The notes below the pieces were generated by a model. That model searched no databases and was not told where the DNA came from. It saw only the letters and a list, made by a program, of their open reading frames with translations. The translations under genes were made by a program, and so were the position numbers. A stretch of DNA of 64,000 bases from Devriesea agamarum (lineage in GTDB: Bacteria > Actinomycetota > Actinomycetes > Actinomycetales > Dermabacteraceae). How positions within the stretch are numbered: the first letter of the stretch is position 1; every line of letters begins with the position of its first letter. Location of the stretch: contig NZ_LN849456.1 of NCBI RefSeq assembly GCF_900070355.1, positions 2,108,001 through 2,172,000 of the forward strand, read 5' to 3'. This document shows, piece by piece, positions 1,692 through 17,679 of this stretch.

Positions 1692-2453
1692 TCAGCCGGT
1701 GATCATGCCGCCATCCACGGTGAGCACCTTGCCGGTGACATAGGAGGCGGCTGGGCTGGCTAAGAAGGTGACGCACTGGGCAACCTCGCTGGCGGTTCCA
1801 AGTCGTCCCAGTGGGATGGCGCTGGCTGCCTGTTCGCGGGAAGAGGCTGACAATTTGGCGACCATATCGGTGTCGATGAAACCCGGAGCCACGCAGTTGA
1901 CGCGGATGCCTCGGCTGGCGGTTTCGAGCGCGAGGGTTTTGGTCAGGGCGATGCATCCGCCTTTGCTGGCGGCGTAGTTGATCTGTCCGCTGCGACCGGC
2001 GATGCCGCTGGTGGAACTGATCACCACAATGGAGCCGCCGCTGCTGTACATGGCCTTTACGGATTCGCGAGCGCATCGGAATGTGCCGGTGAGATTAGTG
2101 TCGATGACGTCGTGCCATTTGCGGGTGCTCATCGTGGCGGCGTGACCGTCAGAGGTGATCCCGGAATTGAGCACGCTCACATCCAGGCGTCCGAAACGCT
2201 CTCGGACCGCGCGGAAGGCGGCGAGTACGCTCGCATCATCAGCGGTGTCCAGGTTCAAGACCAGGGCCTGCCTGCCCGCATCCTCAACTTGCTCGGCGAT
2301 TTGCTGCGCCGCCTCTGCTCGCAAGCGATAGGTGATGGCGACATCGCACCCGGCTTTCGCCAGCGCGACCGCGGTGGCGGCACCGATTCCGCGGGAGGAA
2401 CCGGTCACAAGTGCCACAGTGCCCGGAGTAAACAGATTCATCAGCTCAGCCAC
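1692..2453 (-). CDS. FabG-like 3-oxoacyl-ACP reductase (SDR family)
   Basis: Classical short-chain dehydrogenase/reductase, 253 residues. The cofactor loop is VALVTGSSRGIGAA, the structural NxG motif appears as VLNSGIT, the catalytic Ser lies in ISSTSG, and the Tyr-Lys pair is in YAASKGG. The C-terminal VTGKVLTVDGGMI is typical of FabG. The expected reaction is NADPH-dependent reduction of 3-oxoacyl-ACP. The chosen start is a GTG at 2453 that overlaps the SbnB-like stop by 8 bp and has GAGGGTGA a few bases upstream; an ATG at 2441 is possible but has no clear ribosome-binding site. Gene order with ACP and FabZ downstream supports a discrete acyl-chain reducing set rather than primary fatty-acid synthesis. 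Confidence 0.88.
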   Translation of the reverse strand: MAELMNLFTPGTVALVTGSSRGIGAATAVALAKAGCDVAITYRLRAEAAQQIAEQVEDAGRQALVLNLDTADDASVLAAFRAVRERFGRLDVSVLNSGITSDGHAATMSTRKWHDVIDTNLTGTFRCARESVKAMYSSGGSIVVISSTSGIAGRSGQINYAASKGGCIALTKTLALETASRGIRVNCVAPGFIDTDMVAKLSASSREQAASAIPLGRLGTASEVAQCVTFLASPAASYVTGKVLTVDGGMITG

Positions 2454-3627
2454 GGGTCACCTCACCCTCATCCGCGGCGTGATCTTGCGCGGAGTGGTCT
2501 TGCGCAGGGCGGCTGGGTTGCACGGGGCTGTCTTGTGCGGCGTGGCCATGCGCGGGGCCGTCCTGTGTGGACTCTCCCTGCGAGGTGAGGTCGCTTGGCG
2601 CTAAGTTGCCGTGGCTCGCGCCGGTGACCGGGTGATGCTCGGGGGTGAAACCCTCCAAATCCACGCCGACACCGTGACGTTGGCAGTAAGTGAGAACCTC
2701 CCTGGCCAGAGCAATATCGAGCACGCCTAGCCCAAACGGGGAGAACACGATCCGTTTGGCCTCGGGCACGGCAGCGGCACCGAACAGCATGTCGCCCAGC
2801 GAGCAATCAATGAAGTCCCGGTGACCGCGAATTTTCTCGGCCAGGTGCAGGCTGGTCTCTTCCCGGCACACGTGGTCGGGATCATCGACGACATTGGCGG
2901 CGGTCAGAATCGACTGAGGCGTCAGATCGCGCAGAGACAGATGTAAAACCACCTGATGCGCAGGACCAGGCAGCTCCGAGAGGTCTAGCGAATGGCTGGA
3001 ATCGGTGGTGGCAATGGTGACCGTATCGCTGCTTTCAAAAACGTCCGCGGGACAATCAGCGGTGGTGACGGTGATCTCGCGATGCGCTAGGGCCAGTAAC
3101 CCGCCGAATGTTTGGGCTCGGTGCGGTAAAACGTCGTGCACCACGATGGTGCGCAAATCGGGGTGCAGCTGCGCGAGCTCGCGCACGGTCTGCAAGTTGA
3201 TGGTGCCGCACCCGATCACCCCGACGGTGTGCACGGGACGACCGCAGTGCAAAACCTGGCTGGCTAAAGCCCCGCTGGCCGCGGTGCGAGCGATGGAGAT
3301 CTGACTGGATTCAAGAACCGCCAGAGGATAACCGGTGTCCGGGGAGTTCAGGATCAACAGAGCCGACGCGCGCTGCTGGCCCTGTTCGGTATTGCTCGGA
3401 AATGAAGCAATCCACTTCATCCCCATGGCTTCGTGATCCCCCTCCAGATGAGCTGGAAGGGCGATGATGCGATCCGAGGGGTGATTCAGCGGACGCAGAA
3501 AACACGAGAACGGCACAACGGTGTGGCCGAGGCTATGCATCATGTAGGCGTGTTGCACAGTGCCGACGGTCGATAATTCGGGGCTAGAGAGGGCGCGGGC
3601 GACATCCGCGCTATTGAGCGCTTTCAT
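2446..3627 (-). CDS. SbnB-like N-(amino-carboxyethyl)-L-glutamate dehydrogenase (ornithine cyclodeaminase family)
   Basis: This 393-residue protein belongs to the ornithine cyclodeaminase/mu-crystallin family. It shows the GMKWIASFPSN segment, the ASALLILN strand, the TAASGALASQVL helix and a Rossmann loop HTVGVIGCGTINLQT. SbnB of the staphyloferrin B pathway oxidatively splits N-(1-amino-1-carboxy-2-ethyl)-glutamate to L-2,3-diaminopropionate and 2-oxoglutarate using NAD. The SbnB assignment rests on the direct 4-bp overlap with an SbnA-like gene plus the SbnI-like gene upstream. The last 50 residues are a low-complexity tail of repeated Ala-Gln-Asp-His elements not expected in the family. 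An ordinary ornithine cyclodeaminase is the alternative but is unlikely beside SbnA. Confidence 0.85.
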   Translation of the reverse strand: MKALNSADVARALSSPELSTVGTVQHAYMMHSLGHTVVPFSCFLRPLNHPSDRIIALPAHLEGDHEAMGMKWIASFPSNTEQGQQRASALLILNSPDTGYPLAVLESSQISIARTAASGALASQVLHCGRPVHTVGVIGCGTINLQTVRELAQLHPDLRTIVVHDVLPHRAQTFGGLLALAHREITVTTADCPADVFESSDTVTIATTDSSHSLDLSELPGPAHQVVLHLSLRDLTPQSILTAANVVDDPDHVCREETSLHLAEKIRGHRDFIDCSLGDMLFGAAAVPEAKRIVFSPFGLGVLDIALAREVLTYCQRHGVGVDLEGFTPEHHPVTGASHGNLAPSDLTSQGESTQDGPAHGHAAQDSPVQPSRPAQDHSAQDHAADEGEVTRG

Positions 3628-4826
3628 TGGGCTTTCCTTCGGGACAGGCGTTGTGGAGTGAGGTCAATCGGCTGCGGGTTCTCAAGAGAGAACGCCCAGG
3701 TCTCGGGGCTCGGCAAAGGGCCTAGGCGCTCACGCACCCAGGACGGCGAGTACACGGTGTCCAGGTATCGGTTACCGCCATCGGGCATCAGGGCCACGAC
3801 GTGAGCCCCGGCCAGTTCGCTCCCCAGCTGCCGGGCGCACCGCACAATGGCGGTCGCAATCGCGCCGGATGAGCCACCGAGAAGCAGCGATTCAGTGCGC
3901 AAGAGTTCCTGGCAGCCGATAACACAGTCCATATCGGTCACCAGAACGAGGTAATCCGCGAGCCCGTCAGCCATGAGCTGCGGGCGCACGGCAGCTCCGT
4001 GTCCGGGGATGTAACGGGGGCCGTCGATCAGGGGCTCCCCGAAGATCCGGCTCGATATGGAATCCACCGCAATCACGGTGACATCCCGGCCAAGACGGCG
4101 AAGCTCCTCGGAACATCCCCGCAGGGTGCCGCAGGACCCGGCGGCAACCACCAGGTGAGTGATGTCGGGTACGTCGCGCAGAATCTCGGCGATGGTTGCG
4201 CGGTGCGCACGCGGGTTATCAGGATTTTGGTACTGGTTTGGCCACCAGGTATTCGGGATTGTCCGGCAGATCTCGTGGACCCGGGCCAACCGTGCGGGCA
4301 GGTATTCACCAGTGGCAGGATCTGGATGCTCAATCACCTCGACCTGCGCACCGTAGGCGCGCATCAAGGCGATATTGGTCGGGGTTGCCTTGACGTCGGT
4401 GACGCAATGGAAACGAAGACCGTAGGCGGTGCACAGCTGGGCTAGCGCAATGCCGAGGTTGCCGGAGGAGGATTCCACCACCGTGGTGACGCCCGGGATA
4501 ATCCGGTGATCGTGAAGAGCCCGGGTGAGCATCATCTGGGCAGCTCGAGCTTTAATACTGCCGCTCAGATTGTATTTTTCGAGCTTCGCGTACAGCGTGA
4601 ACGCGGAGGTAGACAGGAATTTATCGAGTCGGATCAGCGGGGTGTTCCCAACCATGGTTGCCAGGGTGTGGGTCACTGATTGGTGCGGCACAGGATCTTC
4701 GCTGGGCAGTGCCAGGCCTTCGCTGCACAGTGCGGTGCGCTCTTCGGGCGGCGCAGAGCCGTCCTTGGGATGCAGCGGGAGCTCGGGGGCCTGTTCGGGC
4801 ATAGTGGCGGTGGCTAGCAGGCTCAT
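3624..4826 (-). CDS. SbnA-like PLP enzyme, N-(amino-carboxyethyl)-L-glutamate synthase
   Basis: Cysteine-synthase-fold PLP enzyme of 400 residues. The PLP Lys is K92 in NLSGSIKARA, the substrate loop is SSSGNLGIA and the phosphate-binding loop is GGSSGAIATA. SbnA joins O-phospho-L-serine and L-glutamate to give the intermediate cleaved by SbnB. The start is an ATG at 4826 that forms a 4-bp ATGA overlap with the LanB-like gene. The gene ends with a 4-bp overlap into sbnB. The first 50 residues before HTLATMVGNTPLIRL are an extra Pro/Glu/Leu-rich tail absent from SbnA of about 326 residues. Plain cysteine synthase is less likely because of the SbnB and SbnI neighbours. Confidence 0.88.
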   Translation of the reverse strand: MSLLATATMPEQAPELPLHPKDGSAPPEERTALCSEGLALPSEDPVPHQSVTHTLATMVGNTPLIRLDKFLSTSAFTLYAKLEKYNLSGSIKARAAQMMLTRALHDHRIIPGVTTVVESSSGNLGIALAQLCTAYGLRFHCVTDVKATPTNIALMRAYGAQVEVIEHPDPATGEYLPARLARVHEICRTIPNTWWPNQYQNPDNPRAHRATIAEILRDVPDITHLVVAAGSCGTLRGCSEELRRLGRDVTVIAVDSISSRIFGEPLIDGPRYIPGHGAAVRPQLMADGLADYLVLVTDMDCVIGCQELLRTESLLLGGSSGAIATAIVRCARQLGSELAGAHVVALMPDGGNRYLDTVYSPSWVRERLGPLPSPETWAFSLENPQPIDLTPQRLSRRKAQ

Positions 4827-7264
4827 CGCGGTTCGCCTTTCGCCATCGCAACCCAGTGCTTGCGGGTCACATGGAAGCGGAACTCGCTGGTGTAGCGGCC
4901 CCCGTGCTCGTCGGTCAGCCAGCTTTCCTGCGGATGAGGAAGACACTCGCTCGCGGTGACGCGCGACCCTCCACTGAGGCGTTCCTGGCGTACCAGCCGG
5001 GTAAATGTTGACACCAACAGCGGACTTGTGAAGTCGACATAGACAGGTTTGGTTTCGCTGGGAAACTTCATAAAGACACAGCTCGGCAGCTGGTGGGCCC
5101 GGCGCCACCGGTCCACGGTGGCAAAAACGTCGGCTTCGCTGGCGTGACCGGGCAACGACAGGTCATCTAGACCCACCTGCCAGGTCTGCCGAAACAGCAC
5201 CAGATCATCAATCGTCAGACGCGGAGCTGAGGAGCCGGGAAGGCCAATTTTGAACGCATCGCACGCGAGGATTGAGAGGGGAACGGCCCATAGCTCCGCC
5301 AGGGTGGCAGTGCGCTGATCTGGGAACACGCCGATAAAACCGGTGTCGTGGGGGCGCAGTTCGATACAGCCAGCAGGAACGACATGGCGCGGGTCAGTCG
5401 GGATTGCCGTGGTGAAGCCGATCCCGGTTTCGGAGGTACCGATCCGGGCGGGTTTGGTGCGTCCGGTGTTGCGCCGCCACGCTTCGGGGAAAAGCGGCAC
5501 GATCCTGCTGCTGCCGAGCACGGTATTGATGGCGTCGCGCACGATCAGGTTTGCTCTGTCGGCCAGTGGCCATTCAAACAGTGGGGTTTCGCAGGAGGCG
5601 AGGCAGGCATGCAGCTCGCTGATCACCACCTGGTAGTTGCCCTGAGCGATCTCCTCGGCGGAGGAGGTGAGGATGTGAATATCGGGGCTGTGCACAGCCA
5701 TCGCCGGAATCAGGTGGTCTGGCAGTGGGAACTGCCGGTGGACTTCGGCGGCGATGTCGGCGGATTTCATGCACACCCGGTTGGCGTGACCAGAGGCGTC
5801 GCCCAGGATGGCATTCCACCGCTGGGAGAGTTCCGCGGTGACCCCGGTGAGGGTGGGGGTGTCATCGCCCCAGAACAGGGACATGGACGGCGCCCATACG
5901 TCGGCCAGGGTGAGGGTGTGTCCGGGCCTCATCCGGGAGGAGATCAGGGTGGTGAGCTGCTCGGTGTAACGGGCGGTGAGCTCTGCGGCAAACCAATCGG
6001 CAGAGCGCAGAACCAGGTCCAGCGGGGCGGAAATACGCTCTAGCAGATCCCGTCCGATACCGGTGTCAATCCCCTGGTCGCAATCGAAATAGGCGATAGT
6101 GCGAGCGGCATAGGCCCGACCTTCATGGCGCTGGGCTTTCTCTTGGGTGAGCTGTGTGAACTCTTGATCGAGCCGACGGATCAGCGTGCGAATATCCCGG
6201 TGTCTGCGTGGCCTTGCGGTTAGGGTCGCGGTGAGCTGGTCAATTAGCTGGTTAAACCGGGCCAAGGTCTCCTGGCAGCGGATGCGAGTGACCGAGCAGT
6301 CAATAGCATCGACCCGGTCGGAGAGGAGCTGCCAGGAGATGGGCGAGATCGGCAGCGCCCCGTTCCAGTGCACCAAACGTTTGCGCGCGTATCGGGTGAT
6401 GATCTTTTCGACGATCTCCCGGGTGAATTCCTGGCCGGGGTGGCGCTCGCGCAAGGTTGTGAGAATGTCCGGTCCGGTGCGCATTCCGTCGATGAGGCTC
6501 AGCACCGCGAGATCCGCAGCGGGCACTCGCAGCGGCGGCAGCGAGCGCCGGCGTATGATCCCGTGCTCCGGGTCAATCGCGTGGTCTACGCGCACCAGCG
6601 GAGGGAACCACCAGCGGGCTCCGGCATCAGCCAGTTGGGCGGCAATCGCGTTAATTGCCCAGGCCTCTAGTCGGACGACGGTGGCGCGCGGGGTTCGAGA
6701 GAACGCGGTGGGTAGGCAGGCCGTGTCGGTCTGACCGATTGGAATCCAGGAAATCGGGCCGAAATAGCCAATGGATTCGGCTTTGCTGCAATAGCGCTGC
6801 CAGTAGCTCGCGACTGCGCGCTCGCGGTTGCGACGCTTGGACCTCGGGTAGGTGTCGATGGGGCCGAGTTTTGCGACACAGGTGTCGATGAGCTGAGGGT
6901 TTTGCCAGGTGATCGCGGTCAACAGGTCGGGGTCTGCGCAAAGCTTGGCTATCGCGTTGGATGAGTGCACGCGCTCAGCCTCGAACAGCTCGGTGAAGGC
7001 GTCGGCGTCGAGGTCGCCGCGATCCAGATCCTCTAACGCTTTGGCTAATGCATCGCTTTGTAATAGGTCTAGGCCGTCGGCGGAGAAGCCTGCGCTGCGC
7101 AATAACCCGGCTCCGAACACTGCCCACGGGGTGGTGCCAAGCGGCACTGTGCGGTGCAGCAGGTCCCGGATCGCGGGTGCGGAACCATGCGTGGAGCTGA
7201 GCGCGTCATCCCCGACGCTGGCCGGGTCACGGTGGGAGTAGTTCGTCATGGTGGTGGTGCTCAT
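4823..7264 (-). CDS. Stand-alone LanB-type (lantibiotic dehydratase N-terminal) enzyme
   Basis: An 813-residue protein resembling the glutamylation half of LanB dehydratases. Recognisable parts are the early RRNRERAVASYWQRYCSK segment leading into ESIGYFGPISW (about residues 143-175), WWFPPLVRVDH, a middle region with LHACLASCETPLFEWPL, and the C-terminal stretch FMKFPSETKPVYVDFTSPLL. Full LanB enzymes transfer glutamate from Glu-tRNA to Ser/Thr and have a separate elimination domain; that domain is absent here. Stand-alone relatives known as PEARLs add amino acids from aminoacyl-tRNA to a peptide. No precursor peptide or LanC gene is visible, so its acceptor is unknown. It overlaps both neighbours by 4 bp, between the aminotransferase and sbnA-like genes. 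The family call is fairly secure; the reaction is inferred. Confidence 0.7.
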   Translation of the reverse strand: MSTTTMTNYSHRDPASVGDDALSSTHGSAPAIRDLLHRTVPLGTTPWAVFGAGLLRSAGFSADGLDLLQSDALAKALEDLDRGDLDADAFTELFEAERVHSSNAIAKLCADPDLLTAITWQNPQLIDTCVAKLGPIDTYPRSKRRNRERAVASYWQRYCSKAESIGYFGPISWIPIGQTDTACLPTAFSRTPRATVVRLEAWAINAIAAQLADAGARWWFPPLVRVDHAIDPEHGIIRRRSLPPLRVPAADLAVLSLIDGMRTGPDILTTLRERHPGQEFTREIVEKIITRYARKRLVHWNGALPISPISWQLLSDRVDAIDCSVTRIRCQETLARFNQLIDQLTATLTARPRRHRDIRTLIRRLDQEFTQLTQEKAQRHEGRAYAARTIAYFDCDQGIDTGIGRDLLERISAPLDLVLRSADWFAAELTARYTEQLTTLISSRMRPGHTLTLADVWAPSMSLFWGDDTPTLTGVTAELSQRWNAILGDASGHANRVCMKSADIAAEVHRQFPLPDHLIPAMAVHSPDIHILTSSAEEIAQGNYQVVISELHACLASCETPLFEWPLADRANLIVRDAINTVLGSSRIVPLFPEAWRRNTGRTKPARIGTSETGIGFTTAIPTDPRHVVPAGCIELRPHDTGFIGVFPDQRTATLAELWAVPLSILACDAFKIGLPGSSAPRLTIDDLVLFRQTWQVGLDDLSLPGHASEADVFATVDRWRRAHQLPSCVFMKFPSETKPVYVDFTSPLLVSTFTRLVRQERLSGGSRVTASECLPHPQESWLTDEHGGRYTSEFRFHVTRKHWVAMAKGEPR

Positions 7265-8643
7265 GGCGCCGTCATTTCGTCAGTGGGAAGGGGCCGCGGC
7301 CCGTCGTGGATGTCGTGCGAGCCCTGGGTGTCGTGTGAGCCCTGGATGTCATGTGAGTCGTGGGTGTGGTTCAGGTCGCCGGTGAGCGCGCAGGCTAGTC
7401 GCCGCGCTCCGTCGGCCAGCAGGTCTGGGCGACAATGGCTGAACGACAGACGCAAGCAGGTCCGGTACGGGTGATGCTCGCTGATCGCGAAGTGGCAGCC
7501 GGGAACGTACATGACTCGGTGCTGCGTGGCCCGCTCGGCGAGTTGAAAGGTGTCGATTCCGTCGGGCCCGGTGAGCCAGAGGTAAAACCCTCCGGACGGT
7601 TCGGTCCACCGCCACCCGGCATCGGTCAGAGCGCTCTCAGCGAGGGCACGACGCAGGCTCTCGTGCTTTGCTCGATACCGTTGCCGGTAACCGTTAATCA
7701 GCGCGTCCCAGCCCGCCTCACGCGAGATGATCCCGACGATGTCGTGGGCCAGTGCCGACGGCGACAGGGTGAGAACTTCCGTCGCAGAACGCAGCTGATC
7801 ATGCAGGTAGGTGGGCGGGTCAATCCAACCGCAGCGCAGCCCGGGGGCGAGCACTTTGGAGAAGGTCCCGAGGTAGACCACCCGCTCGGGAGCGATAGAT
7901 TTCAGCGCTGGGAAGGTCTGGTCGGTGAAGGACAGTAACCCGTATGGATTGTCTTCGACTACCAGCAGGTCCAGGTCGGCGCAGACGCGCATCAGCTCGC
8001 GACGACGCTGAGGGGGCTGGGTGATGCCGGTCGGGTTATGGAAGGTCGGTACGGTGTATACAAAACGCACGCGATGCCCGGCCCGCCGAGCTGCTTTCAC
8101 GCATTCAACCAGTGCGTTGGGATTGAGACCGTGCTCGTCGATGGGGCAGTCAACCAGGGTCAGCCCCGCGAACTGGAAGGCCGCACTAGCCCCCGGGTAG
8201 GCGGGTGATTCGCAGATGACCGCGTCTCCAGGTTCGGCCAGTCCGCGGGCCACGGCGACCAAAGCGGTTTGGGAACCGGAGGTGGGGATCAGATGCTCAC
8301 TGGCGGGGATGTGTTCGCGGGCGGTGAGGTCCGTGATGGCACTGGTCAGGGGACCGCGCACGGTGAGCGGCGAATACTGCAAAAGGGTTGAGGCGCCGAG
8401 CCGGAGCCGACGGGCGATGTGTTCGGCGAGTTCATATGCGGGCAGGTCGGTGAGGTCGGGAAGGCCGCCGGCAAACGAAATGGTGCCTGGATGCAGCTCG
8501 AATAGGTTTGGCATCTCGACGCCTCGGCGGGGCCGGTTGCGGTCGGTAGCTCGATTCGTGGTGCTCTCGGGTGCGGCTGTGGCGGGTTCTGCCGACGGTC
8601 GTTGTGTTGTCCCCAGGTGGGCCGTGGGGTGGTGGGGGCTCAT
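7261..8643 (-). CDS. PLP-dependent aminotransferase, class I/II (AAT/MocR-like catalytic domain)
   Basis: A fold-type I aminotransferase of up to 460 residues without the GntR helix-turn-helix found in MocR proteins. Diagnostic motifs are ISFAGGLPDL, LIPTSGSQTALVAVARGL, VPTFHNPTG, VVEDNPYG and the PLP-Lys region YLGTFSKVLAPGLRCGW. The substrate cannot be read from sequence; relatives act on 2-aminoadipate, aromatic or branched amino acids. The C-terminus ends in three near-identical hexapeptides (SHDIQG type) that match an 18-bp DNA repeat. The ATG at 8643 lies 12 bp after the upstream ACP stop; an internal ATG at 8514 with GAGG seven bases upstream is an alternative that would remove a 43-residue disordered leader. 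Confidence 0.82.
   Translation of the reverse strand: MSPHHPTAHLGTTQRPSAEPATAAPESTTNRATDRNRPRRGVEMPNLFELHPGTISFAGGLPDLTDLPAYELAEHIARRLRLGASTLLQYSPLTVRGPLTSAITDLTAREHIPASEHLIPTSGSQTALVAVARGLAEPGDAVICESPAYPGASAAFQFAGLTLVDCPIDEHGLNPNALVECVKAARRAGHRVRFVYTVPTFHNPTGITQPPQRRRELMRVCADLDLLVVEDNPYGLLSFTDQTFPALKSIAPERVVYLGTFSKVLAPGLRCGWIDPPTYLHDQLRSATEVLTLSPSALAHDIVGIISREAGWDALINGYRQRYRAKHESLRRALAESALTDAGWRWTEPSGGFYLWLTGPDGIDTFQLAERATQHRVMYVPGCHFAISEHHPYRTCLRLSFSHCRPDLLADGARRLACALTGDLNHTHDSHDIQGSHDTQGSHDIHDGPRPLPTDEMTAP
7311..7364. repeat. Three tandem 18-bp units inside the aminotransferase gene
   Basis: Units at 7311-7328, 7329-7346 and 7347-7364 share the pattern TGTCGTGTGAGCCCTGGG with a few substitutions. 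They encode the repeated hexapeptide near the C-terminus of the aminotransferase and keep the frame open. Confidence 0.8.
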
Positions 8644-8957: not shown

Positions 8958-10748
8958 TTAGACGCTGGAGGCGAGGGCTTTCGGGGCGCGATCCGCAGGT
9001 ACATCTGCCTTGGCATCCGGCGGTCTGCTGGCATTCGCATGCGGTCTGCTGCCATGCGGGGCGTGGTACTCCTGAGCGATGGGAGCGCTGTGTAATCGGG
9101 TCCGGTCGGGTTTCCCGTTGGGTGTCAAGGGCACATCAGTCAGGCGGACAATGCGGTCGGGCTGGCGTGCCGGGTCCAGCTCGATGCCCAGGTGCTCAGC
9201 CACCCGGGCAGGGTCCACGGTCCCGGTGTAGAACAGTGTGAGGTCGGCATCCTCGCTGGCAGGGCGGGGAACAATTGCGGTGTCGAGATCGCTGATCTGT
9301 TCGGCAGTGGTTTCGATGTCGTACACGGACAACCGGATTCCTCGACGTTTAATCAGGTCATCATCTCGGCCGAGGAAATACAGTCGATCCTCAGCATCGA
9401 GATAGCCCTGGTCACCGGTATGAAGCTCCAGGGATCCGTCTGGAGTGGGAACGAACCGTTGCTGGGTGGACATCGGAACGTTCCAGTACCCGGCCATCAC
9501 GGTGGGTCCGGACACCACGATCTCTCCGGGCTGACCGACGGGACGAGCAGTGCCATCGGCAGCGATGATCCGGATGCGGGTGCCGGGAAGGGCTCGTCCG
9601 ACCGACTCGGGGTGGGCGGTCCATTCCGATGGCGGCAAAATGGAGATGCGTTTGCACTCCGTCATGCCGTACATGGAGGCGAACTCTGCCCCAGGAAGCA
9701 GCGCGAGCAGCTGTTTCATGATCTCTGCGGGCATTCTGGCGCCGGTGTTTGTCAGCAGTCGTACCGGCGCGGGGATGGCGCGGTTGCGGCTGAGTGTGAG
9801 CAGCATGTGGGCGAGGGCTGGGACCAGCGGGATCACGCTGATATGTTCCCGACGGATGAGATCGAGCAGCTTGATGTCGTATTGCGGGTCGGCTAGCACG
9901 ATCCGAGCCCCGCTCCAGGCTGCGAGGAAAATCTGGTAGAGCCCGTAGTCGAAGGCCAAGGGCAGTCGGCACAGGATGACGTCGGAGTGGGTGTACATCA
10001 GGGTGTCGGCAATTGCCTGGACGGCTGACAGGATGCAGCTGTGGGGGCTCATCACGCCGTGGGGTTTCCCGGTGCTGCCGGAGGTGTAGATCAGCAGCCC
10101 CAGGGCGTCGGGTGTGCAGCTCGATGGCTTTGCCGCCAACTGAGTCGTCGATCCGGCAGCTTGTGGGTTAGTTGCTGCGGCAGTAGTTGGTGGTGTATTC
10201 GCTGACTCTGTGGTCGGTTGTTCCGCCACGAGAGCGATCTCATCCCAGGTCGCCACGATGGCTGGTGCACAGGTAGCCGATGCACAGGTAGCCGGTGCGC
10301 AGGTGGCCGCCCCTGCTGTAGCGGGCTGGTCGGCGGCAGGTGCGGGGATGGTGGATTTGTGTATCGGCGGACCCGGGGAATAGTCGGGCTGATGAGCAGC
10401 GCTATCGGTGCTGTGACCGGCGCCGCTGGGGTGGCACCCGATTACCAGGGTGGGGGAGCAGTCGGCGACTAGTTCCCGGATCTGGGAGTCGGTCAGATTC
10501 GGGTGCACTGGCACGAACACCGCTGCGCGGCTCAGCGTCGCCCACAGTGCGAGGACGACCAGGGCGTCGGATGGGGCAGAGCACAGGACGCGGTCTCCGG
10601 GGCGAACCCCGTGCCTTTGCATCCACTGCTCAACCCGCTGCACTCGTTCGGTGAGCTGTCGCCAGGTGAAACGTCGATGAGTGTCGATTAGTGCGATGTC
10701 GTCCGGCCATAAGCGGGCACAGCGCTGAAGGAGCTCATGCACCAACAT
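8958..10748 (-). CDS. AMP-dependent ligase / stand-alone adenylation enzyme
   Basis: ANL-superfamily enzyme of about 596 residues. The core motifs are GLLIYTSGSTGKPHGV (A3), MYGMTECKR (A5 region), LHTGDQGYLDAEDRLYFLGR (A7-A8), DDLIKRRGIRLS and the C-terminal LTPNGKPDRTRL with the catalytic Lys (A10). Such enzymes activate an acid as acyl-AMP and load it onto a carrier protein; the ACP gene directly downstream is the likely partner. The preferred start is an ATG at 10748 with AGGAAGAG upstream, overlapping the FabD stop by 14 bp; a longer frame reaches back to 10802 but has no support. Between the A2 and A3 regions there is an unusual insertion of about 80 residues rich in Ala, Thr and Cys, which includes three DNA-level repeats. 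Confidence 0.88.
   Translation of the reverse strand: MLVHELLQRCARLWPDDIALIDTHRRFTWRQLTERVQRVEQWMQRHGVRPGDRVLCSAPSDALVVLALWATLSRAAVFVPVHPNLTDSQIRELVADCSPTLVIGCHPSGAGHSTDSAAHQPDYSPGPPIHKSTIPAPAADQPATAGAATCAPATCASATCAPAIVATWDEIALVAEQPTTESANTPPTTAAATNPQAAGSTTQLAAKPSSCTPDALGLLIYTSGSTGKPHGVMSPHSCILSAVQAIADTLMYTHSDVILCRLPLAFDYGLYQIFLAAWSGARIVLADPQYDIKLLDLIRREHISVIPLVPALAHMLLTLSRNRAIPAPVRLLTNTGARMPAEIMKQLLALLPGAEFASMYGMTECKRISILPPSEWTAHPESVGRALPGTRIRIIAADGTARPVGQPGEIVVSGPTVMAGYWNVPMSTQQRFVPTPDGSLELHTGDQGYLDAEDRLYFLGRDDDLIKRRGIRLSVYDIETTAEQISDLDTAIVPRPASEDADLTLFYTGTVDPARVAEHLGIELDPARQPDRIVRLTDVPLTPNGKPDRTRLHSAPIAQEYHAPHGSRPHANASRPPDAKADVPADRAPKALASSV
10265..10309. repeat. Three tandem 15-bp units in the AMP-ligase gene
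   Basis: Consecutive units of the form GTGCACAGGTAGCCG at 10265-10279, 10280-10294 and 10295-10309. They encode ATCAP/ATCAS-type pentapeptides in the low-complexity insertion that precedes the A3 nucleotide-binding loop. Confidence 0.8.
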
Positions 10749-11688
10749 GGGCGGTCTCTTCCTGGTCGATGGCCTGCACCTCACGCCATCCTCGTCCAAC
10801 ACAGGGGCCGCATAGCACCAGATCTCGCGGTCTGCTGATGCTGCGCTGAGGCAAATCGGGAAACTCTCGGCGCAGCAGACCGCTGAGCACCTTCGCCGGG
10901 GGAAGGCAGATCACTTCATCGGGAGAGCAGGCAGCGATCCTCCTCATGCACGCATCCCAACGCACGGGTTCAGTGATCTGCTCAATCAGGCGTTCTCGCA
11001 GCTCAGCACCTGAGGTGACCAGGGCTCCATCCAGATTTTGGATCACGGGAATGCGAGGGTCATGGAACTGAACCTCGGCGATGGTCGCACGAAATTCGTC
11101 CCGGGCGGGATTCATATAGGGAGTGTGAAACGCCCCGGCCACGGCGAGGCGTCGCACCGCGGCGCCGCACGGAGGTTGGCGCACGAGGTCCTCGATGCGT
11201 TCCTCTGTTCCTGCCGCGACCAGTTGACCAGCGCCATTAACAGTCGCCAAGTAGATATCGCGGGAGCGCAAGTCCGCCAGCACCTCGGACATCTCGCCGC
11301 CGAGCACCGCGGCCATCGCGGAGGGCTGCGCGGAGCAAGCTTTTGCCATGGCCAGACCTCTAGCCCGGGCCAGCCGCACTGTATCGGAGGGGCTCAGTGC
11401 GCCCGCTAGGCAGGCGGCAGCGAGTTCTCCGACGGAGTGACCGGCGATCGCCGAGGTGTCATCCGTAACTACCGATGCGGCCAGGATCGCCTGTGCGACC
11501 AGAAGTGGTTGCGCATTTTCGGTGAGCTGGATGGTCTCCGCGGTGGCCTTTGTTCCGAGTTGCACGAGGTCGGTGTCACTCGCGTGCGACCACGCGAGGA
11601 TCTGCTCCGCGTGGTCCGGCGAGGTCAGCCAGGCCGCGAGCATCCGCGGTTTTTGGGCGCCCTGTCCGGGGGCGACGACGATGCTCAT
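10735..11688 (-). CDS. FabD-like malonyl-CoA:ACP transacylase
   Basis: Acyltransferase of 317 residues. It starts IVVAPGQGAQKPRML, has the nucleophile elbow GHSVGELAAA with Ser at 85, the conserved Arg region RLARARGLAMAKA, and the catalytic His in GAFHTPYMNPARDEF. The AFH motif is the malonyl-selective type. It would supply malonyl-ACP to the discrete chain-building enzymes of the cluster. The stop overlaps the AMP-ligase start. A second, primary-metabolism FabD would be expected elsewhere in the genome; its presence in this operon argues for a specialised role. The last 40 residues, with CGPCVGRGWREVQ, extend past the usual end of the fold. Confidence 0.88.
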   Translation of the reverse strand: MSIVVAPGQGAQKPRMLAAWLTSPDHAEQILAWSHASDTDLVQLGTKATAETIQLTENAQPLLVAQAILAASVVTDDTSAIAGHSVGELAAACLAGALSPSDTVRLARARGLAMAKACSAQPSAMAAVLGGEMSEVLADLRSRDIYLATVNGAGQLVAAGTEERIEDLVRQPPCGAAVRRLAVAGAFHTPYMNPARDEFRATIAEVQFHDPRIPVIQNLDGALVTSGAELRERLIEQITEPVRWDACMRRIAACSPDEVICLPPAKVLSGLLRREFPDLPQRSISRPRDLVLCGPCVGRGWREVQAIDQEETAHVGA

Positions 11689-11714: not shown

Positions 11715-12527
11715 TTAGTTGCGGCCGCCGCTGGCGCGGAACCGCACTGCAGCGAAGATGACGAACCCGATGAACCAGGCCAACATGTTGACGATGGCTA
11801 ACACCAGGGACGAGTGCGCGCCGCTGGGCGAGTAGCCGCCGTCGAGGGCGTAGCGGGCGAGCGTGGAGATGCCAAACATCGGGGTCCAGCGGCCGATCTC
11901 CAGGATGATGCCTGACAGTGGGATGAAGAGGTTCCCGATAAACGCGAGCGCGGTGATGGTGATACCGGGAACGTGAATGACAACTTCGGGTTTCACCGCG
12001 AGGCCGAGCCCCAGCCCAAGAGCCGCGAAGATAGCAGAGCCCAACCAGGCGACGACTAATCCGATAACCCAGACCTGTGCCGGGGCGTCGGCTCCGGTGA
12101 CAGCGCCCAAAATACCGACCAAAATGACGGGGAGGGTTGCCGCCACCATCGAGGCAGCAACTTTAGACAGGATGTATCCCATGGTGCCGAGCGGGGTGAG
12201 GCGCATGGTGCGCATCCAGCCGGAAGACTTTTCAATGCTGATGCCGACGGCGTTAGCGGTGGCTGAGGTTGCCGCGCCATAGACGGCAATGCCGATCATC
12301 ATCCAGGCGGCGAAATTGCCGTGCGGTATTCCGGCGTGTGCGGGCCCGGTTTTAAACAGTGCTAAATACAGCACGGCGGGTAGCGCAAGCGAGAAGATCA
12401 GAGCTTGGCGTTTAAAAGGACGTTTGAGTTCGTAGCGCAAATAGCGCAGCTGAAAACCGCCAGCTTTGCGGGAACTGAGCGGACGCAGGGCGCGGTGGGT
12501 GCCGACAGTGGGCGAGGGTGAGGTCAT
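11715..12527 (-). CDS. ABC-2 type transporter permease
   Basis: A 270-residue membrane protein with about six hydrophobic segments, starting at the FSLALPAVLYLALF stretch and including the paired segments MVAATLPVILVGILGAV and VWVIGLVVAWLGSAIFAAL. The layout matches the ABC-2 exporter permeases (DrrB/YhiH type). It follows its ATPase gene after 51 bp and precedes fabD by 26 bp. Export of the cluster product, or self-resistance, is the likely role given its position and the adjacent DesK/DesR-like regulators; the substrate cannot be read from sequence. Confidence 0.85.
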   Translation of the reverse strand: MTSPSPTVGTHRALRPLSSRKAGGFQLRYLRYELKRPFKRQALIFSLALPAVLYLALFKTGPAHAGIPHGNFAAWMMIGIAVYGAATSATANAVGISIEKSSGWMRTMRLTPLGTMGYILSKVAASMVAATLPVILVGILGAVTGADAPAQVWVIGLVVAWLGSAIFAALGLGLGLAVKPEVVIHVPGITITALAFIGNLFIPLSGIILEIGRWTPMFGISTLARYALDGGYSPSGAHSSLVLAIVNMLAWFIGFVIFAAVRFRASGGRN

Positions 12528-12578: not shown

Positions 12579-13526
12579 TTATTTGCTGGTGAGGGTGAGG
12601 AAGGCTTCTTCGAGGCTGCGAGGAGCTATTTCCAGTTCTTTGGCACCAGCGGTGAGCAGCGCGGTCGCAAATGCGTCGCTGTCGGGGTGGTCGAAATAGG
12701 TGCGGTGTCCGCGCCGGTCGATCAGTTTGGCTTTGGGGTCGCTCAGCAATGCGTTCACGGCGTCGTCGGGAAGAACACACGACAACACGCGTCCGGCGGT
12801 GGCGGTGCGGATTTCGTCGACGCTGCCGTCGGCGACGATCTGGCCGTCTTTAATCATGATGACGCGGTCTGCGAAATTGTCGGCTTCTTCAAGATAATGG
12901 GTAGCGAAAACAACGGTGCGACCCCGGCTGGTGTCTTGGCGAACCTGTTTCCAAAAGTCGTGGCGTGCGTTGATATCCATGCCTGCGGTGGGTTCGTCGA
13001 GAATCATGATCTCGGGGTCGGGCAGCAGGGCGAGCGCGTACCGAAGGCGCTGGACTTCACCGCCTGAGCTTTTGCCGACGGTGCGGTCGGCGAGCTGGGT
13101 GATGTTGGCGCGTCTCATACATTCTTCAACATCGGCCCCGCGGTAGAGCGAGCCAATCATGTTCATGGTGTCGCCCATGGTGAGGTCGGGAAGCATCCCG
13201 CCGCTCTGCATCACTGCCGAGATGAGCCCGGCGTGAGCGGCGGTGATGGGGTCTAATCCAAAAACGCTGACGCTTCCGCTATCGGGCTTGGTCAGTCCGA
13301 GCAGAAGATCAATGCTGGTGGACTTGCCGGCGCCGTTGGGGCCGAGAAAGGCGACAACTTCACCGCGCCCAATCGACAGCGACAGGTTATTCACGGCGGT
13401 GATGGTTTTCTGCTCTGAGATGGTGAAGGTCTTCGTGACCCGGTCCATCCGCAGTGCGGTGTTCGGATCGGGAACGCTGTCACCGGATGCGGCTGAGGCG
13501 GTGGACGCTGTGGTGGTGCTCATCAT
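12579..13526 (-). CDS. ABC transporter ATP-binding protein (DrrA-like exporter)
   Basis: A 315-residue nucleotide-binding subunit. Walker A is GPNGAGKST, the Q-loop is SAVMQSGGM, the signature is SSGGEVQRLRYAL in place of the usual LSGGQ, and Walker B is IMILDEPTAGMD; the H-loop is FATHYLEEAD. The C-terminal part after about residue 225 resembles the accessory region of antibiotic exporters. It is the partner of the permease directly downstream. The gene order SbnI-like, ATPase, permease, FabD suggests it is expressed with the biosynthetic genes. Confidence 0.9.
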   Translation of the reverse strand: MMSTTTASTASAASGDSVPDPNTALRMDRVTKTFTISEQKTITAVNNLSLSIGRGEVVAFLGPNGAGKSTSIDLLLGLTKPDSGSVSVFGLDPITAAHAGLISAVMQSGGMLPDLTMGDTMNMIGSLYRGADVEECMRRANITQLADRTVGKSSGGEVQRLRYALALLPDPEIMILDEPTAGMDINARHDFWKQVRQDTSRGRTVVFATHYLEEADNFADRVIMIKDGQIVADGSVDEIRTATAGRVLSCVLPDDAVNALLSDPKAKLIDRRGHRTYFDHPDSDAFATALLTAGAKELEIAPRSLEEAFLTLTSK

Positions 13527-13568: not shown

Positions 13569-14237
13569 TCAGGTCGGGATCGTCAGGGCGACGTCATCGT
13601 GCTCAGATCGTGGCGGCGGCCAGAGACTCCCGGTGGCCAGATTCTTGTCCAGAAGTATCGGAGCAAACTGGGTAATTCCCGAAGGAAGCGGGCCGTAGTC
13701 CATCGCCAGCTGGGCGATATCGCGCCAGAGCAGGGGAGTCCAGGTGAAGACGGGGATGGCGGGATCCAGCCCGAGGGTGGACGGCACTCGCCGGGCAAAT
13801 CCCAGCTGTAGTTGGCTCGCAACCGCGTGCACAGCGGTAAAGAGATGCCGCGTGTGGTGAGGACGCTGGCCAAGAAACCGCCGCTGTCCCCAGGTGCTCA
13901 CACAGCCCAGAGGCCTGGTGTCATCGCTCGCGAGGTGCGGCGGAATCTCGGTGGCCTGGAGGCTATCTAAAACATATGACCAGCTAGGAATGCGGGTGTG
14001 GGCCGGCAGCGAGATGACGGTCGCGGGAATGTGGGTCCAGCCGAGTTGCCGTGCGGCGAGCGCCCGGTGGGCTCCGTCCAGGATGATCTTTTGACCCCGG
14101 TAGACGGTGGCGAGGATGGGCCAGCGCAAAGTGCTGGTGCTGAGGTCTTTGCGCAGCGCATCTACATGCTCGGAATCGACCTGCTCGTGCCACAACAGCT
14201 CGCTGAGGCGAACCTCTTCGTGGCATAGCGTGTGCAT
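13569..14237 (-). CDS. SbnI-like ParB/sulfiredoxin-fold serine kinase
   Basis: A 222-residue protein with the ParB-like N-terminal domain: VDALRKDL, then RWPILATVYRGQKIILDGAHRA, where DGAHR (residues 54-58) is the ParB/SerK nucleotide-binding motif. The C-terminal part (MDYGPLPSGITQFAPILL) resembles the end of SbnI from the staphyloferrin B cluster. SbnI makes O-phospho-L-serine from free serine, the substrate of SbnA. Because SbnA- and SbnB-like genes lie in the same run of genes, this function is more likely than DNA partitioning. It is the first gene after a 154-bp gap that contains possible operator repeats. A plain ParB-domain DNA-binding regulator is the main alternative. Confidence 0.72.
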   Translation of the reverse strand: MHTLCHEEVRLSELLWHEQVDSEHVDALRKDLSTSTLRWPILATVYRGQKIILDGAHRALAARQLGWTHIPATVISLPAHTRIPSWSYVLDSLQATEIPPHLASDDTRPLGCVSTWGQRRFLGQRPHHTRHLFTAVHAVASQLQLGFARRVPSTLGLDPAIPVFTWTPLLWRDIAQLAMDYGPLPSGITQFAPILLDKNLATGSLWPPPRSEHDDVALTIPT

Positions 14238-14270
14238 CGTGGTCTCCGGGTGCTCAAAGGTGAGTGACTG

Positions 14271-14283
14271 ATAGCCAGGCTAT
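14271..14283. promoter_or_regulatory. 13-bp palindrome upstream of the SbnI-like gene
   Basis: ATAGCC-A-GGCTAT is a perfect dyad 34 bp upstream of the SbnI-like start. It could be an operator or part of the promoter; there is no direct evidence of a binding protein. Confidence 0.35.
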
Positions 14284-14341
14284 GCACGCTTGGAGCCCCG
14301 GTCACTAGATTCTGAGCTGCTGCCGATAAACGCAACCGCAG

Positions 14342-14380
14342 GTCATGGCTATGTCATGCGCGCGACATGACGAGTGTCAT
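14342..14380. promoter_or_regulatory. Phased GTCATG motifs, candidate response-regulator operator
   Basis: GTCATG occurs at 14342-14347 and 14353-14358, its reverse complement CATGAC at 14366-14371, and GTCAT at 14376-14380. The first two are 11 bp apart, close to one helical turn, and the second and third form an inverted repeat with a 7-bp spacer. The cluster lies between the response-regulator gene and the first gene of the biosynthetic run, so it is a natural place for the DesR-like regulator to act. Binding is an inference. Confidence 0.45.
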
Positions 14381-14391
14381 TTGCTGCTCGT

Positions 14392-14997
14392 TTACAGCCA
14401 GCCCCGGTCTTGGCAGTAGGAAATAGCGCTGATTCTGCTGTTGGTCCCTAGCTTCGTCATCGCCGACGAAATGTAGTTGCGGACTGTGCCGGGCGAGAGG
14501 AACAGCAGTTTGGCGATCTCCAGGGTGGATACACCGCGTGCGAGTTGACGCATCACATCCAGTTCCCGTTCATTCAGCGGGCACGGACCTAGCTGAAGAG
14601 CCTCAGCTGCCAGGTCGGGGTCGAGAACCGTTCGGCCTTGAAGAACCTCATGAATGGAGTCAATCAGTCTCACCGCGGTGATGGTCTTAAGCAGATACCC
14701 GTTGGCCCCAGCCTTGATCGCAACCTGAAGGTAACCGCTGCAGGCGAGTGAGGTGAGCAGAATGATTTTGCCGGTGTAGCCGTGTTGGCGAACCGCGCGG
14801 GTAATGTCGATGCCGTTGGGGCCGGGCATTTTGACGTCGATCAGCATTAAGTCGGGGTGATGCTGCTCTAGTGCGGGAATGACGGCGTGGCCGTTGCTCA
14901 GCCGAGCGACTACCTCGAACTCGGGGTCGGTCTGTAGGAGCACCTCAAAAGCTTCGGCGACGAGTTCGTCGTCATCGACCAAAATTATCCGTACCAC
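14392..14997 (-). CDS. NarL/LuxR-family response regulator (DesR-like)
   Basis: A 201-residue two-component response regulator. The receiver domain has the acidic pocket VDDDE, phospho-acceptor Asp54 in LMLIDVKMPG, the conserved Thr/Ser in ILLTSLA and Lys in GYLLKTITAV. The C-terminal LuxR helix-turn-helix begins with LNERELDVMRQLARGVSTLEIAKLL and includes LSPGTVRNYISSAMTKLG. The start is a GTG at 14997. The cognate histidine kinase lies 135 bp upstream on the same strand. Together they probably control the exporter and biosynthetic genes that follow. Confidence 0.92.
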   Translation of the reverse strand: MVRIILVDDDELVAEAFEVLLQTDPEFEVVARLSNGHAVIPALEQHHPDLMLIDVKMPGPNGIDITRAVRQHGYTGKIILLTSLACSGYLQVAIKAGANGYLLKTITAVRLIDSIHEVLQGRTVLDPDLAAEALQLGPCPLNERELDVMRQLARGVSTLEIAKLLFLSPGTVRNYISSAMTKLGTNSRISAISYCQDRGWL

Positions 14998-15132: not shown

Positions 15133-16290
15133 TTATTTCTCCGAGTCGGATGGATTGTCGATCGGCAGCTGTACTTCGAGCCGGAAACAGTTTTTCTCAC
15201 AGGGGCCGGCGTGCACGGTTGTGCCCCGTCGCGATAAGCGTTCGCGCAGATGGTTCAGCCCAGTTCCGGTATCGGGAGATGCTGCATCGGGTGGGCAACC
15301 ATCGTTGATCAACCGGATGAGCGCGCGATCATCCACGATCCGCACCGTGATCCAGCAGGTGGTCGGTTGCGAGTGTTTCAGCATATTGGTGATGCCTTCG
15401 CGCAGAACTTCTGCGATGGCTTTGCTGAGGGCGGCGTCGTGAATGGGTTCGGTGTCGGCGTGCACGGTGATCCCAAGGCCCTTAGCGATGACTTTCGCTG
15501 AGGACAGCTCGTCGCTCAGATCCGGGGTCATAGAGGTGCGAATGAGCTGCTGAAGTTGCTGCCGCCCGCACAGGATCGCCTGATGGGATTCTTGAATCTG
15601 GTTTTTTGCCCGCTCGACGTCCTGATCGATCAGATTTAATGCTGCTTGTTGACGCAGGGAGACCGCGACGAATGTCCGGCCGATGACGTCGTGCAGCTCG
15701 CGGGAGATCCGTAAGCGTTCTTTGTCGATGTTCGCGCGGGTCAACTGTTCTTGGGCGATCAGTGCTTCGTTGCGGAACCGGGCCAGCATGAAGAAACTCA
15801 TCAAGACGGTGATGATGGTGAGCCCGGCGATGATGATTTCGGTCTGGGTGAAGATCTGGAACGGACCAGCGGAGACAAGGAAGATTTCCACCAACCCTGT
15901 GATGACGAGCCCCCACCAGGCATAGCGTCGAGAAAGCGCGAGGAATACGGCCATGGGGATCACCCCGGCCACGTGGATACCGGGTGTTGCTGTGGCGACC
16001 AGCAGGACGATGACGCTACAGATCAGACTCAGCACGCGCCACCGCATCGTGGTGAGATTGCGCAAGCAGGTGGTCTGTAACGGCCAATACACCGCCACGA
16101 TGGCAAGCGCACACCCGGAATAGACGATGCTGGCTAGAAGACTCCAGGTGGTGGTTGGGGTGGTCAGGATCTGGTGCCAGGTGTCGATCACTCCGAATCC
16201 GGTGGCGGCGGCACTGACCACGAGCGATGCGAGCTCGGCCCCCGGAAAGTGGGAGCGCGGCCGGAAGGTGGAGTGTGCTTTACCGCCCAT
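15133..16290 (-). CDS. DesK-like sensor histidine kinase
   Basis: A 385-residue membrane kinase. About five or six hydrophobic segments occupy residues 20-170 (for example VLSLICSVIVLLVATATPG and TEIIIAGLTIITVLMSFFML). The HisKA_3 dimerisation box ERLRISRELHDVIGRTFVAVS carries the phospho-acceptor His. The ATPase part shows the N-box EVLREGITNMLKHSQ and the G-box GTGLNHLRERLSRRG. The start ATG at 16290 (MGGKAHSTFRPR) is chosen because the longer frame to 16851 runs antisense through the divergent radical SAM gene. The region 16291-16452 is the shared divergent promoter space. Membrane state or the product itself is a possible signal, by analogy with DesK-type kinases linked to ABC-2 exporters. 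Confidence 0.88.
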   Translation of the reverse strand: MGGKAHSTFRPRSHFPGAELASLVVSAAATGFGVIDTWHQILTTPTTTWSLLASIVYSGCALAIVAVYWPLQTTCLRNLTTMRWRVLSLICSVIVLLVATATPGIHVAGVIPMAVFLALSRRYAWWGLVITGLVEIFLVSAGPFQIFTQTEIIIAGLTIITVLMSFFMLARFRNEALIAQEQLTRANIDKERLRISRELHDVIGRTFVAVSLRQQAALNLIDQDVERAKNQIQESHQAILCGRQQLQQLIRTSMTPDLSDELSSAKVIAKGLGITVHADTEPIHDAALSKAIAEVLREGITNMLKHSQPTTCWITVRIVDDRALIRLINDGCPPDAASPDTGTGLNHLRERLSRRGTTVHAGPCEKNCFRLEVQLPIDNPSDSEK

Positions 16291-16452
16291 CAGCCTTGTC
16301 TGGTGAGTCGTGTCGACGAGATGAACTGTGTCGATCAGCCGGATATATTTCGCCCCAATGTAAGGGGGAGATTCCCCGGACACAAATTCGCATCGTTCGA
16401 CGCGTTGGATAGGGACTGGTTTCATCCTGAAGCTGTCACCTACGGTGGACCT

Positions 16453-17679
16453 ATGCCGCGCCGTTTGCCGTTTACCGTCGTCACGAAACCTACCGGTGCG
16501 GCCTGCAATCTCAACTGCACGTACTGTTTTTTCCTGTCCAAAGAAAAGCTGTATCCGCACGACACACTGCGGATGTCTCCGGCAGTTCAAGAGCGGTACA
16601 TCCGTGCCTATCTCGCCGCACAACCTGACGGTGATGTGACCTTGACCTGGCAAGGCGGGGAACCAACTCTGATGGGTCTGGATTTTTTCCGCCGCGCCTG
16701 CGAATTGGTGCGGCGGTACGCTCGACCGCGCCAGCGAGTTCAGCAGTCCATCCAAACCAACGGCGTTTTGGTGACCGATGAATGGGCTGCGTTCTTTGCC
16801 CGCGAAGGTTTTCTGGTGGGTTTGTCGATGGACGGACCGGCCGATATCCACGACACCTATCGGGTGAACAAGGCGGGGCGCGGAACGTATGGCCAGGTGG
16901 TGCGGGGCTGGGAGGCTCTACAGCGACAAGGCGCCGAGGTCAATATTCTGTGCACCGTTCACGCCGGGAACCAGAATCATTCGTTGGAGGTCTATCGTCA
17001 TTTCCGCGATGACCTCGGGGCGAAGTATATGCAGTTCATTCCGATTGTGGAGCGGGTGCTGCCGGAGGATCTTGAGCTCGCCAACCAGGGATGGGTTGAC
17101 GGTGACGGTGGCACGCGCCTGCTCTATCTTCAGCACGGTGATGCCGTCACCGAACGGTCGGTGAACCCGGCGGCATACGGTCGTTTTCTATCCGAGATCT
17201 TTGCCGAGTGGATCGCCCACGACGTAGGTACCGTGTTCGTTCAGGATGTGGATGTGGCGTTGTCGGCCATGTTCGGTCAGTACACGTTGTGTGTGCATGC
17301 TCCGGAGTGTGGCGGGGCGCTCGCCGTGGAGCATAACGGCGATGTTTATTCGTGTGATCACTATGTTGAGCCGGATTATCGCCTGGGTAGCGTGCTCACC
17401 GATGATTTCGCCGACTTGCTGTGTTCGCCGAGTCAGCGCAGTTTCGGACGGGGAAAGCGTACTGACCTGCCTTCGCAGTGCCTGCGCTGCTCGGTCCGTC
17501 CGCTGTGTCACGGGGGGTGCCCGAAGGATCGGTTCATTGATTCTGAGGATGGCGAACCCGGGTTGAATTACCTGTGCGCTGGTTACCGTCATTTTTATGA
17601 AACTGCTTTGCCTGGGTTGCGGGCGATGGCGCGCCTGGTGGCGTCGGGGCGGGAAGCCCGCGAGGTCATGACGTCCTAG
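16453..17679 (+). CDS. Radical SAM/SPASM protein, anaerobic sulfatase-maturating enzyme type
   Basis: A 408-residue radical SAM enzyme. The cluster motif is CNLNCTYC near residue 20, with GGEPTLM in the core and IQTNGVLV and SMDGP further on. The C-terminal SPASM region holds the auxiliary-cluster Cys residues in CVHAPECGG, GDVYSCDHYV, CLRCSVRPLCHGGC and LCAGYRHFY. The family converts Cys or Ser to formylglycine in sulfatases. The ATG at 16453 is chosen because KPTGAACNLNC then sits at the usual distance from the N-terminus. It is transcribed away from the histidine kinase; no sulfatase or peptide substrate is seen nearby, so a link to the biosynthetic cluster is unproven. Confidence 0.88.
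   Translation: MPRRLPFTVVTKPTGAACNLNCTYCFFLSKEKLYPHDTLRMSPAVQERYIRAYLAAQPDGDVTLTWQGGEPTLMGLDFFRRACELVRRYARPRQRVQQSIQTNGVLVTDEWAAFFAREGFLVGLSMDGPADIHDTYRVNKAGRGTYGQVVRGWEALQRQGAEVNILCTVHAGNQNHSLEVYRHFRDDLGAKYMQFIPIVERVLPEDLELANQGWVDGDGGTRLLYLQHGDAVTERSVNPAAYGRFLSEIFAEWIAHDVGTVFVQDVDVALSAMFGQYTLCVHAPECGGALAVEHNGDVYSCDHYVEPDYRLGSVLTDDFADLLCSPSQRSFGRGKRTDLPSQCLRCSVRPLCHGGCPKDRFIDSEDGEPGLNYLCAGYRHFYETALPGLRAMARLVASGREAREVMTS

Follow-up and report, generated by a model that had tools for sequence, protein, structure and literature searches.

A ParB-fold gene beside diaminopropionate genes in Devriesea agamarum is a divergent relative of SbnI and SerK and a putative accessory serine kinase

Background

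What is a gene of the ParB fold doing in a biosynthetic operon? The question is raised by a stretch of 64,000 nucleotides from Devriesea agamarum (hereafter the window), in which such a gene shares a run with the genes for SbnA and SbnB, the enzymes of a route to 2,3-diaminopropionate. A survey of the ParB fold names two of its members, SerK and SbnI, as enzymes (PMC12704722). SerK, an archaeal ADP-dependent serine kinase (PDB 5x0b), has been described in Thermococcus (PMC5120207), while SbnI (PDB 6nr6, 5ujd and 5uje) belongs to staphyloferrin B biosynthesis (PMC7139808, PMC12414870). The kinase activity of SbnI is reported to require Glu20 and Asp58 (PMC9641203, citing Verstraete 2018), and DNA binding and a response to heme have also been described for it (PMC7139808).

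In the open-licence literature, we found no paper on the window's cluster as a whole, none that brings ParB together with diaminopropionate and phosphoserine, and none that describes an SbnI-type gene combined with a LanB-like, KS-type cluster. Here we compare the gene, its neighbors and its relatives in other genomes. Our main conclusion is that it falls on the SbnI/SerK side of the fold and probably encodes a serine kinase that adds to, rather than completes, the supply of O-phosphoserine.

Results

The gene stands first in a run with sbnA and sbnB

An open reading frame (ORF) of 222 aa with an ATG start spans exactly positions 13569-14237 on the minus strand, and a sequence-only reading of the window had correctly seen in it a ParB-fold gene within a biosynthetic operon. 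It is the first gene of a co-directional run that includes SbnA (TIGR03945, 366.6 bits, cut-off 349.95) and SbnB (TIGR03944, 332.1, cut-off 326.9), both identities being confirmed; the sequence-only reading had counted eight genes between the SbnI-like gene and sbnA, where there are actually six, over roughly 9.7 kb (Table 1). From the SbnI-like gene onward, successive genes overlap or lie within 51 nt of each other, the exceptions being 314 nt before the PLP enzyme and 149 nt before the carrier protein; this spacing suggests few transcripts. The next genes on the 5' side form a two-component pair. A scan for terminator-like patterns at the inverted repeat of the intervening gap (14352-14372) gave nothing above chance.

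The cluster continues to the left of the window (L010:4109-13589) with the 802-aa GNAT-domain protein, a GcvT-like protein, a 791-aa protein, a weakly PPTase-like protein, a 459-aa protein for which a Pfam scan gave no match, and an MFS exporter. The 791-aa protein contains ketoacyl-synthase sequence in two stretches, matches AmcF of cispentacin below the cut-off and may be a fused KS-CLF. In the LanB-like protein, Lant_dehydr_N is the only Pfam family above the cut-off; its gene shares the cluster with those for a carrier protein, an adenylation enzyme and a KS-type protein. Relatives of it occur on Streptomyces plasmids, one of them adjoining ACP, AMP-binding, ATP-grasp and condensation-domain genes, and a possible role of the LanB-like protein is to link tRNA-borne amino acids in a pathway other than RiPP biosynthesis. 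At the other end, a long plus-strand ORF for a Radical SAM/SPASM protein (16174-17679) overlaps the opposite-strand histidine kinase ORF, so at least one of the two starts is probably wrong.

Table 1. Features of the window around the SbnI-like gene
Feature	Position	Strand	Basis
N-terminal part of 802-aa GNAT-domain protein	1..589	-	
FabZ-like dehydratase	611..1243	-	
Acyl/peptidyl carrier protein	1240..1542	-	
FabG-like ketoreductase	1692..2453	-	
SbnB	2446..3627	-	
SbnA; ORF extends to 5108, likely start ATG at 4826	3624..4826	-	
LanB-like protein (Lant_dehydr_N), 813 aa	4823..7264	-	
PLP aminotransferase-fold enzyme (MppQ-like, below cut-off)	7261..8643	-	
AMP-forming ligase / adenylation enzyme	8958..10802	-	
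FabD/MdcH-like acyltransferase	10735..11688	-	
ABC-2 type permease (Pfam match under cut-off)	11715..12527	-	
ABC transporter ATPase	12579..13526	-	
SbnI/SerK-like ParB-fold protein, putative free-serine kinase, 222 aa	13569..14237	-	Profiles, alignment, tree
PSGIT, codons 185-189, equivalent of SbnI PAGVT motif	13671..13685	-	Alignment
DGAHR, codons 54-58, Asp54 = SbnI Asp58	14064..14078	-	Alignment
Glu18 codon, equivalent of SbnI Glu20, presumed catalytic	14184..14186	-	Alignment; role from PMC9641203
154-nt gap 5' of SbnI-like gene, with inverted repeat; possible promoter/operator	14238..14391	-	
Response regulator (Response_reg + LuxR-type HTH)	14392..14997	-	
ORF with histidine kinase (HisKA_3), true start probably internal	15133..16851	-	

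Profiles and tree place the protein with SbnI and SerK

Searches with the single sequence gave weak signals, and the family assignment was therefore settled by profiles. The equivalog models for SbnI (NF033589; 23.9 bits, E 2.3e-5) and SerK (NF053625; 20.1 bits) gave the window protein scores far short of the 350 and 380 bits set as their curated cut-offs, and ParB_N, its sole Pfam match, scored 13.7 bits, under a cut-off of 26.3. In the PDB, the best matches were SbnI (E 0.0038), Noc (0.011) and SerK (0.34). Two further results caution against assigning the family by the N-terminal domain only: ParB-like partition families were the nearest in PHROGs, with E down to 2.4e-6 but only over window residues 20-76, and three archaeal plasmid ParB-family records matched at E 7e-4 to 6e-3.

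Profile A4, made of the window protein and two Cutibacterium-type proteins (L018 and L016), matched the SbnI structures at E 8.9e-11, 1.4e-7 and 2.8e-7 over about query residues 6-193. (Alignment A3, which also held the archaeal protein L063, was misaligned in its C-terminal part, and A4 and A5 were used instead.) Query residues 6-193 align with residues 7-206 of 5uje, that is, over nearly the full length and beyond the N-terminal ParB-fold domain, which bears out the C-terminal likeness to SbnI that had been claimed; the best ParB/Noc match of the same profile was Noc, at E 0.0037 and in the N-domain only (residues 24-87), and SerK was matched at E 1.3. Compared by hhalign, the window sequence reached 97.7% over 183 columns with a profile of 40 Bacilli SbnI sequences, against 65% over 79 columns with a profile of eight ParB-type proteins; the corresponding hmmsearch scores were 46.2 and 10.8 bits. 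Among the 12,010 ORFs of at least 80 aa in the window and in loci L009-L150, the Bacilli SbnI profile found five at E <0.05, namely those of the window, L009, L016, L018 and the archaeal SbnI/SerK-like L063.

In a tree of the N-domain (52 rows, 103 columns kept; L201, missed by the motif pattern, was left out), nine ParB rows split from SbnI, SerK and the window protein at 99/97, and the window protein paired with Cutibacterium at 97/88. The window row is a deep, long branch of 1.83 changes per column and falls under a long-branch warning of possible false joining, so that its finer placement is unsure. An AlphaFold model from the three-row alignment A4 had a mean pLDDT of 44.6. Judged by these sequence comparisons, the window protein is placed with SbnI and SerK within the ParB fold and is not a partitioning ParB; the profiles and the tree favor SbnI/SerK over the closer kinship to ParB at which the N-domain searches weakly hint.

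Residues of the kinase and of SbnA

Both catalytic residues of SbnI have equivalents in the window protein, Glu18 and Asp54, the latter in the DGAHR motif at residues 54-58 that the sequence-only reading had singled out. Trp86, Arg150 and PSGIT (185-189) also agree with the SbnI/SerK family, and the residues invariant in an 18-row family alignment are retained. No intact counterpart exists for the C-terminal ~30 residues of SbnI: its stretches GRxLNLxxPL and LRxYxExVY, which follow PAGVTRF, are lacking or changed in both the window protein and the Cutibacterium proteins.

How constant are the two catalytic residues among relatives? In 40 SbnI-like proteins of Bacilli found by HMM, the Glu is kept in all 40 and the Asp in 39. 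A 42-row residue alignment has both in 42/42 by construction, as its rows were picked by a pattern demanding both residues; 38 of the 40 Bacilli proteins passed this pattern, and L201, which has both residues, failed it for another reason. In one Bacilli protein (L219:9552-10445), Tyr replaces the catalytic Asp, and the stretches read around its gene hold no SbnA, which marks it out as a candidate for an SbnI that is not a kinase.

Three SbnA residues, Arg132, Tyr152 and Ser185, have been reported as selective for O-phosphoserine (PMC12414870). The window SbnA keeps the equivalents of Lys47, Arg132, Gln151 and Tyr152 and has Gly in place of Ser185. All 32 SbnI-linked SbnA proteins of Bacilli have Arg at position 132; among 78 generic CysK-like sequences, at least 74 show a gap there. 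Gly at position 185 is common (36 of the 49 SbnA ORFs of loci L091-L139; 6 of the 32 SbnI-linked Bacilli proteins); it is thus no argument against the use of phosphoserine, yet the site is weaker as positive proof.

The linkage is rare in the host's class and has precedents elsewhere

Within the host genome, the window gene is the only SbnI-family match (NF033589; profile A5), and a single SbnA lies over the cut-off among five candidates scored. The one ParB_N match at E <= 0.001 (115.5 bits) is located elsewhere and is the host's own ParB. Whole-genome searches with profile A5 found an SbnI-like gene in 1 of 394 genomes of the host's class, the window's own. Queried with the window protein, these genomes gave six partial matches other than its own gene, at 16.5-18.8 bits, which we took as chance, and a search of the 58 nearest relatives returned only the window's own gene. 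SbnA itself is over the cut-off in 41 of the 394 genomes; no SbnI-like ORF was found at 60 other SbnA loci of the class (49 over the cut-off among the matches listed, and 11 weaker), with up to 20 kb covered around each and less at contig ends.

The closest parallel is on a plasmid of Cutibacterium modestum, where an SbnI-like gene (L009) lies about 1 kb from sbnA-sbnB. Its product, WP_002526555.1, annotated as a hypothetical protein, is 30.5% identical to the window protein over 85% and shares its tree branch, but the cluster around it is of NRPS type. Near-copies of this SbnI-like gene and its SbnA gene occur on a MAG contig labelled Corynebacterium (L016), whose label or binning may be wrong.

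We also sampled 398 genomes of the Bacilli, the class of Paenibacillus radicibacter; with E 1e-6 as the threshold, SbnI-family matches turned up in 50 of them, in five over the cut-off. Forty loci from 39 of these 50 were analyzed; the other 11 genomes were set aside on the likeness of their scores to those of genomes included. At 32 of the 40 loci, SbnA is found no more than 11.5 kb away (19 times in the first 20 kb read and 13 times further upstream); 26 loci have SbnB in the first 20 kb. As to the eight loci lacking SbnA, the contigs of L206 and L222 run out some 3 kb upstream, and the other six showed no SbnA further upstream either, L205 being covered for only 7 kb more, to its contig end. 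Since 13 of the 32 loci have SbnI and SbnA 10.4-11.5 kb apart, the distance in the window is ordinary. Association of an SbnI-like gene with diaminopropionate genes is, then, rare in the host's class, with known precedents elsewhere. An archaeal MAG contig offers a parallel to the SbnI-SbnA pairing, with an SbnI/SerK-like gene (L063:9462-9938) directly adjoining a CysK-like gene.

A syntenic cluster lacks the gene

The host genome encodes SerC, an ordinary source of O-phosphoserine (539.4 bits, cut-off 401.65). G309, a genome of 9.2 Mb from the host's class, carries a cluster syntenic with the window's (G309:C1:3407800-3427700, locus L103). All 12 cluster proteins compared, a set without FabG, the response regulator and the histidine kinase, match at 34-68%, and the clusters also match in SbnA (52%), SbnB (50%), the ABC ATPase (54%) and the MFS protein (49%). 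A whole-genome profile search of G309 gave no SbnI-like match; the flanks of its cluster (L277 and L278) hold neither an SbnI-like gene nor a good match to the two-component pair, the regulator being matched at 34.7% over just 75 aa. SerC, the syntenic cluster lacking the gene and a report that in Staphylococcus aureus SbnI is redundant with the phosphorylated serine pathway (PMC12414870) together point to a putative kinase that would be an extra, cluster-bound supply. The SbnI-like gene is probably an accessory supplier and not an indispensable step.

Discussion

The gene at 13569-14237 probably codes for a free-serine kinase of the SbnI/SerK type, whose O-phosphoserine would feed the SbnA/SbnB route to diaminopropionate on top of that from SerC. 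Family, residues and linkage are the observed part of this reading. The predicted kinase would move phosphate from a nucleotide to serine by way of Glu18 and Asp54, both the reaction and the donor nucleotide being presumed; we take the separate roles of the two residues, as base and as metal/phosphate site, to be those in SerK. SbnA, if the flow reaches it, would combine O-phosphoserine with glutamate into N-(2-amino-2-carboxyethyl)-glutamate, from which SbnB would release 2,3-diaminopropionate for the cluster product, with the kinase as a cluster-borne supply beside SerC. The idea that the gene supplies SbnA with O-phosphoserine, put forward by the sequence-only reading, is thus upheld as to family, residues and linkage with SbnA and SbnB, and weakened by scores below the SbnI and SerK cut-offs and by the lack of the SbnI C-terminal end. 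That it "completes" the route is too strong, with SerC in the genome and the gene missing from the G309 cluster.

How closely does the protein resemble known systems? With SbnI, it shares the N-domain, a middle and C-terminal match up to residue ~193, the Glu20/Asp58 equivalents, the DGxHR and PAGxT motifs and the linkage with SbnA and SbnB, but it is only about 20% identical to the SbnI-type row L185 and lacks the last ~30 residues. The settings differ as well: the window gene comes first in a KS/LanB-type cluster, whereas SbnI comes last in the siderophore operon sbnA-I. SerK shares the HE and DGxHR signature, and the Trp and the C-terminal Pro motif align with the SerK-like row L063; unlike the window protein, SerK serves cysteine and serine metabolism, and its direct match to the window protein is the weaker one. 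EdeB, which we set beside the window protein by description only, is encoded by an SbnI-like ParB-family gene in the edeine cluster, the product of which contains diaminopropionate, but it is a 256-aa promoter-binding activator from Brevibacillus (PMC9641203). The window protein is a rare and divergent member of the SbnI/SerK kind.

EdeB also suggests another function. The gene could be mainly a pathway-specific transcription regulator, as EdeB is or as in the second role of SbnI, its kinase activity lost or minor. EdeB, with its SbnI-like domain, binds the promoter of its cluster, and its deletion is reported to lower transcripts (PMC9641203); SbnI too binds DNA (PMC7139808); the window gene comes directly after a two-component pair, beside the gap with the inverted repeat, and the flanks of the G309 cluster lack both an SbnI-like gene and a good match to the pair. 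We nevertheless think this unlikely, as both catalytic residues are kept, no Pfam HTH match was found in the window protein up to E 1, the C-terminal end of SbnI is missing and the strong link to SbnA itself is one that a regulator would not need. By analogy with SbnI and EdeB, the gene is possibly a regulator as well as a kinase gene.

Less likely again, the protein may be a degenerate or re-purposed relative that keeps the nucleotide-binding fold for another task, such as phosphorylating a different hydroxy amino acid or a cluster intermediate. Its long branch and shortened C-terminus fit such a history, and the fold survey reports varied nucleotides, among them CTP, which was bound by a SerK-like protein from an archaeon (PMC12704722); retention of the family-invariant residues and the presence of SbnA and SbnB in both actinobacterial contexts argue the other way. 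Finally, a chromosome- or plasmid-partitioning ParB or a ParB-type nuclease that sits in the cluster by chance is very improbable in spite of the ParB-like N-domain matches: it was rejected on profile A4, the hhalign and hmmsearch comparison and the 52-row tree, no ParA is among the neighbors scanned, DGAHR stands where the GERR motif would be, and the host has a ParB of its own.

Returning to the serine kinase, we tentatively suggest, as a possibility rather than an expectation, that the window and Cutibacterium proteins form an actinobacterial subfamily of their own, made up of short serine kinases that have a single purpose and are devoid of the SbnI C-terminal end. Individual diaminopropionate clusters might have gained them and so been freed from central serine metabolism, and these kinases might use another phosphate donor and lack the DNA-binding role of SbnI.

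Kinship with SbnI and SerK explains the misleading appearance of a "ParB" in a biosynthetic cluster, and the linkage seen here shows that diaminopropionate genes have SbnI-type proteins beside them in rare cases outside Bacilli too. The syntenic SbnA/SbnB cluster that lacks the kinase-like gene offers a natural comparison for what a dedicated supply of O-phosphoserine adds.
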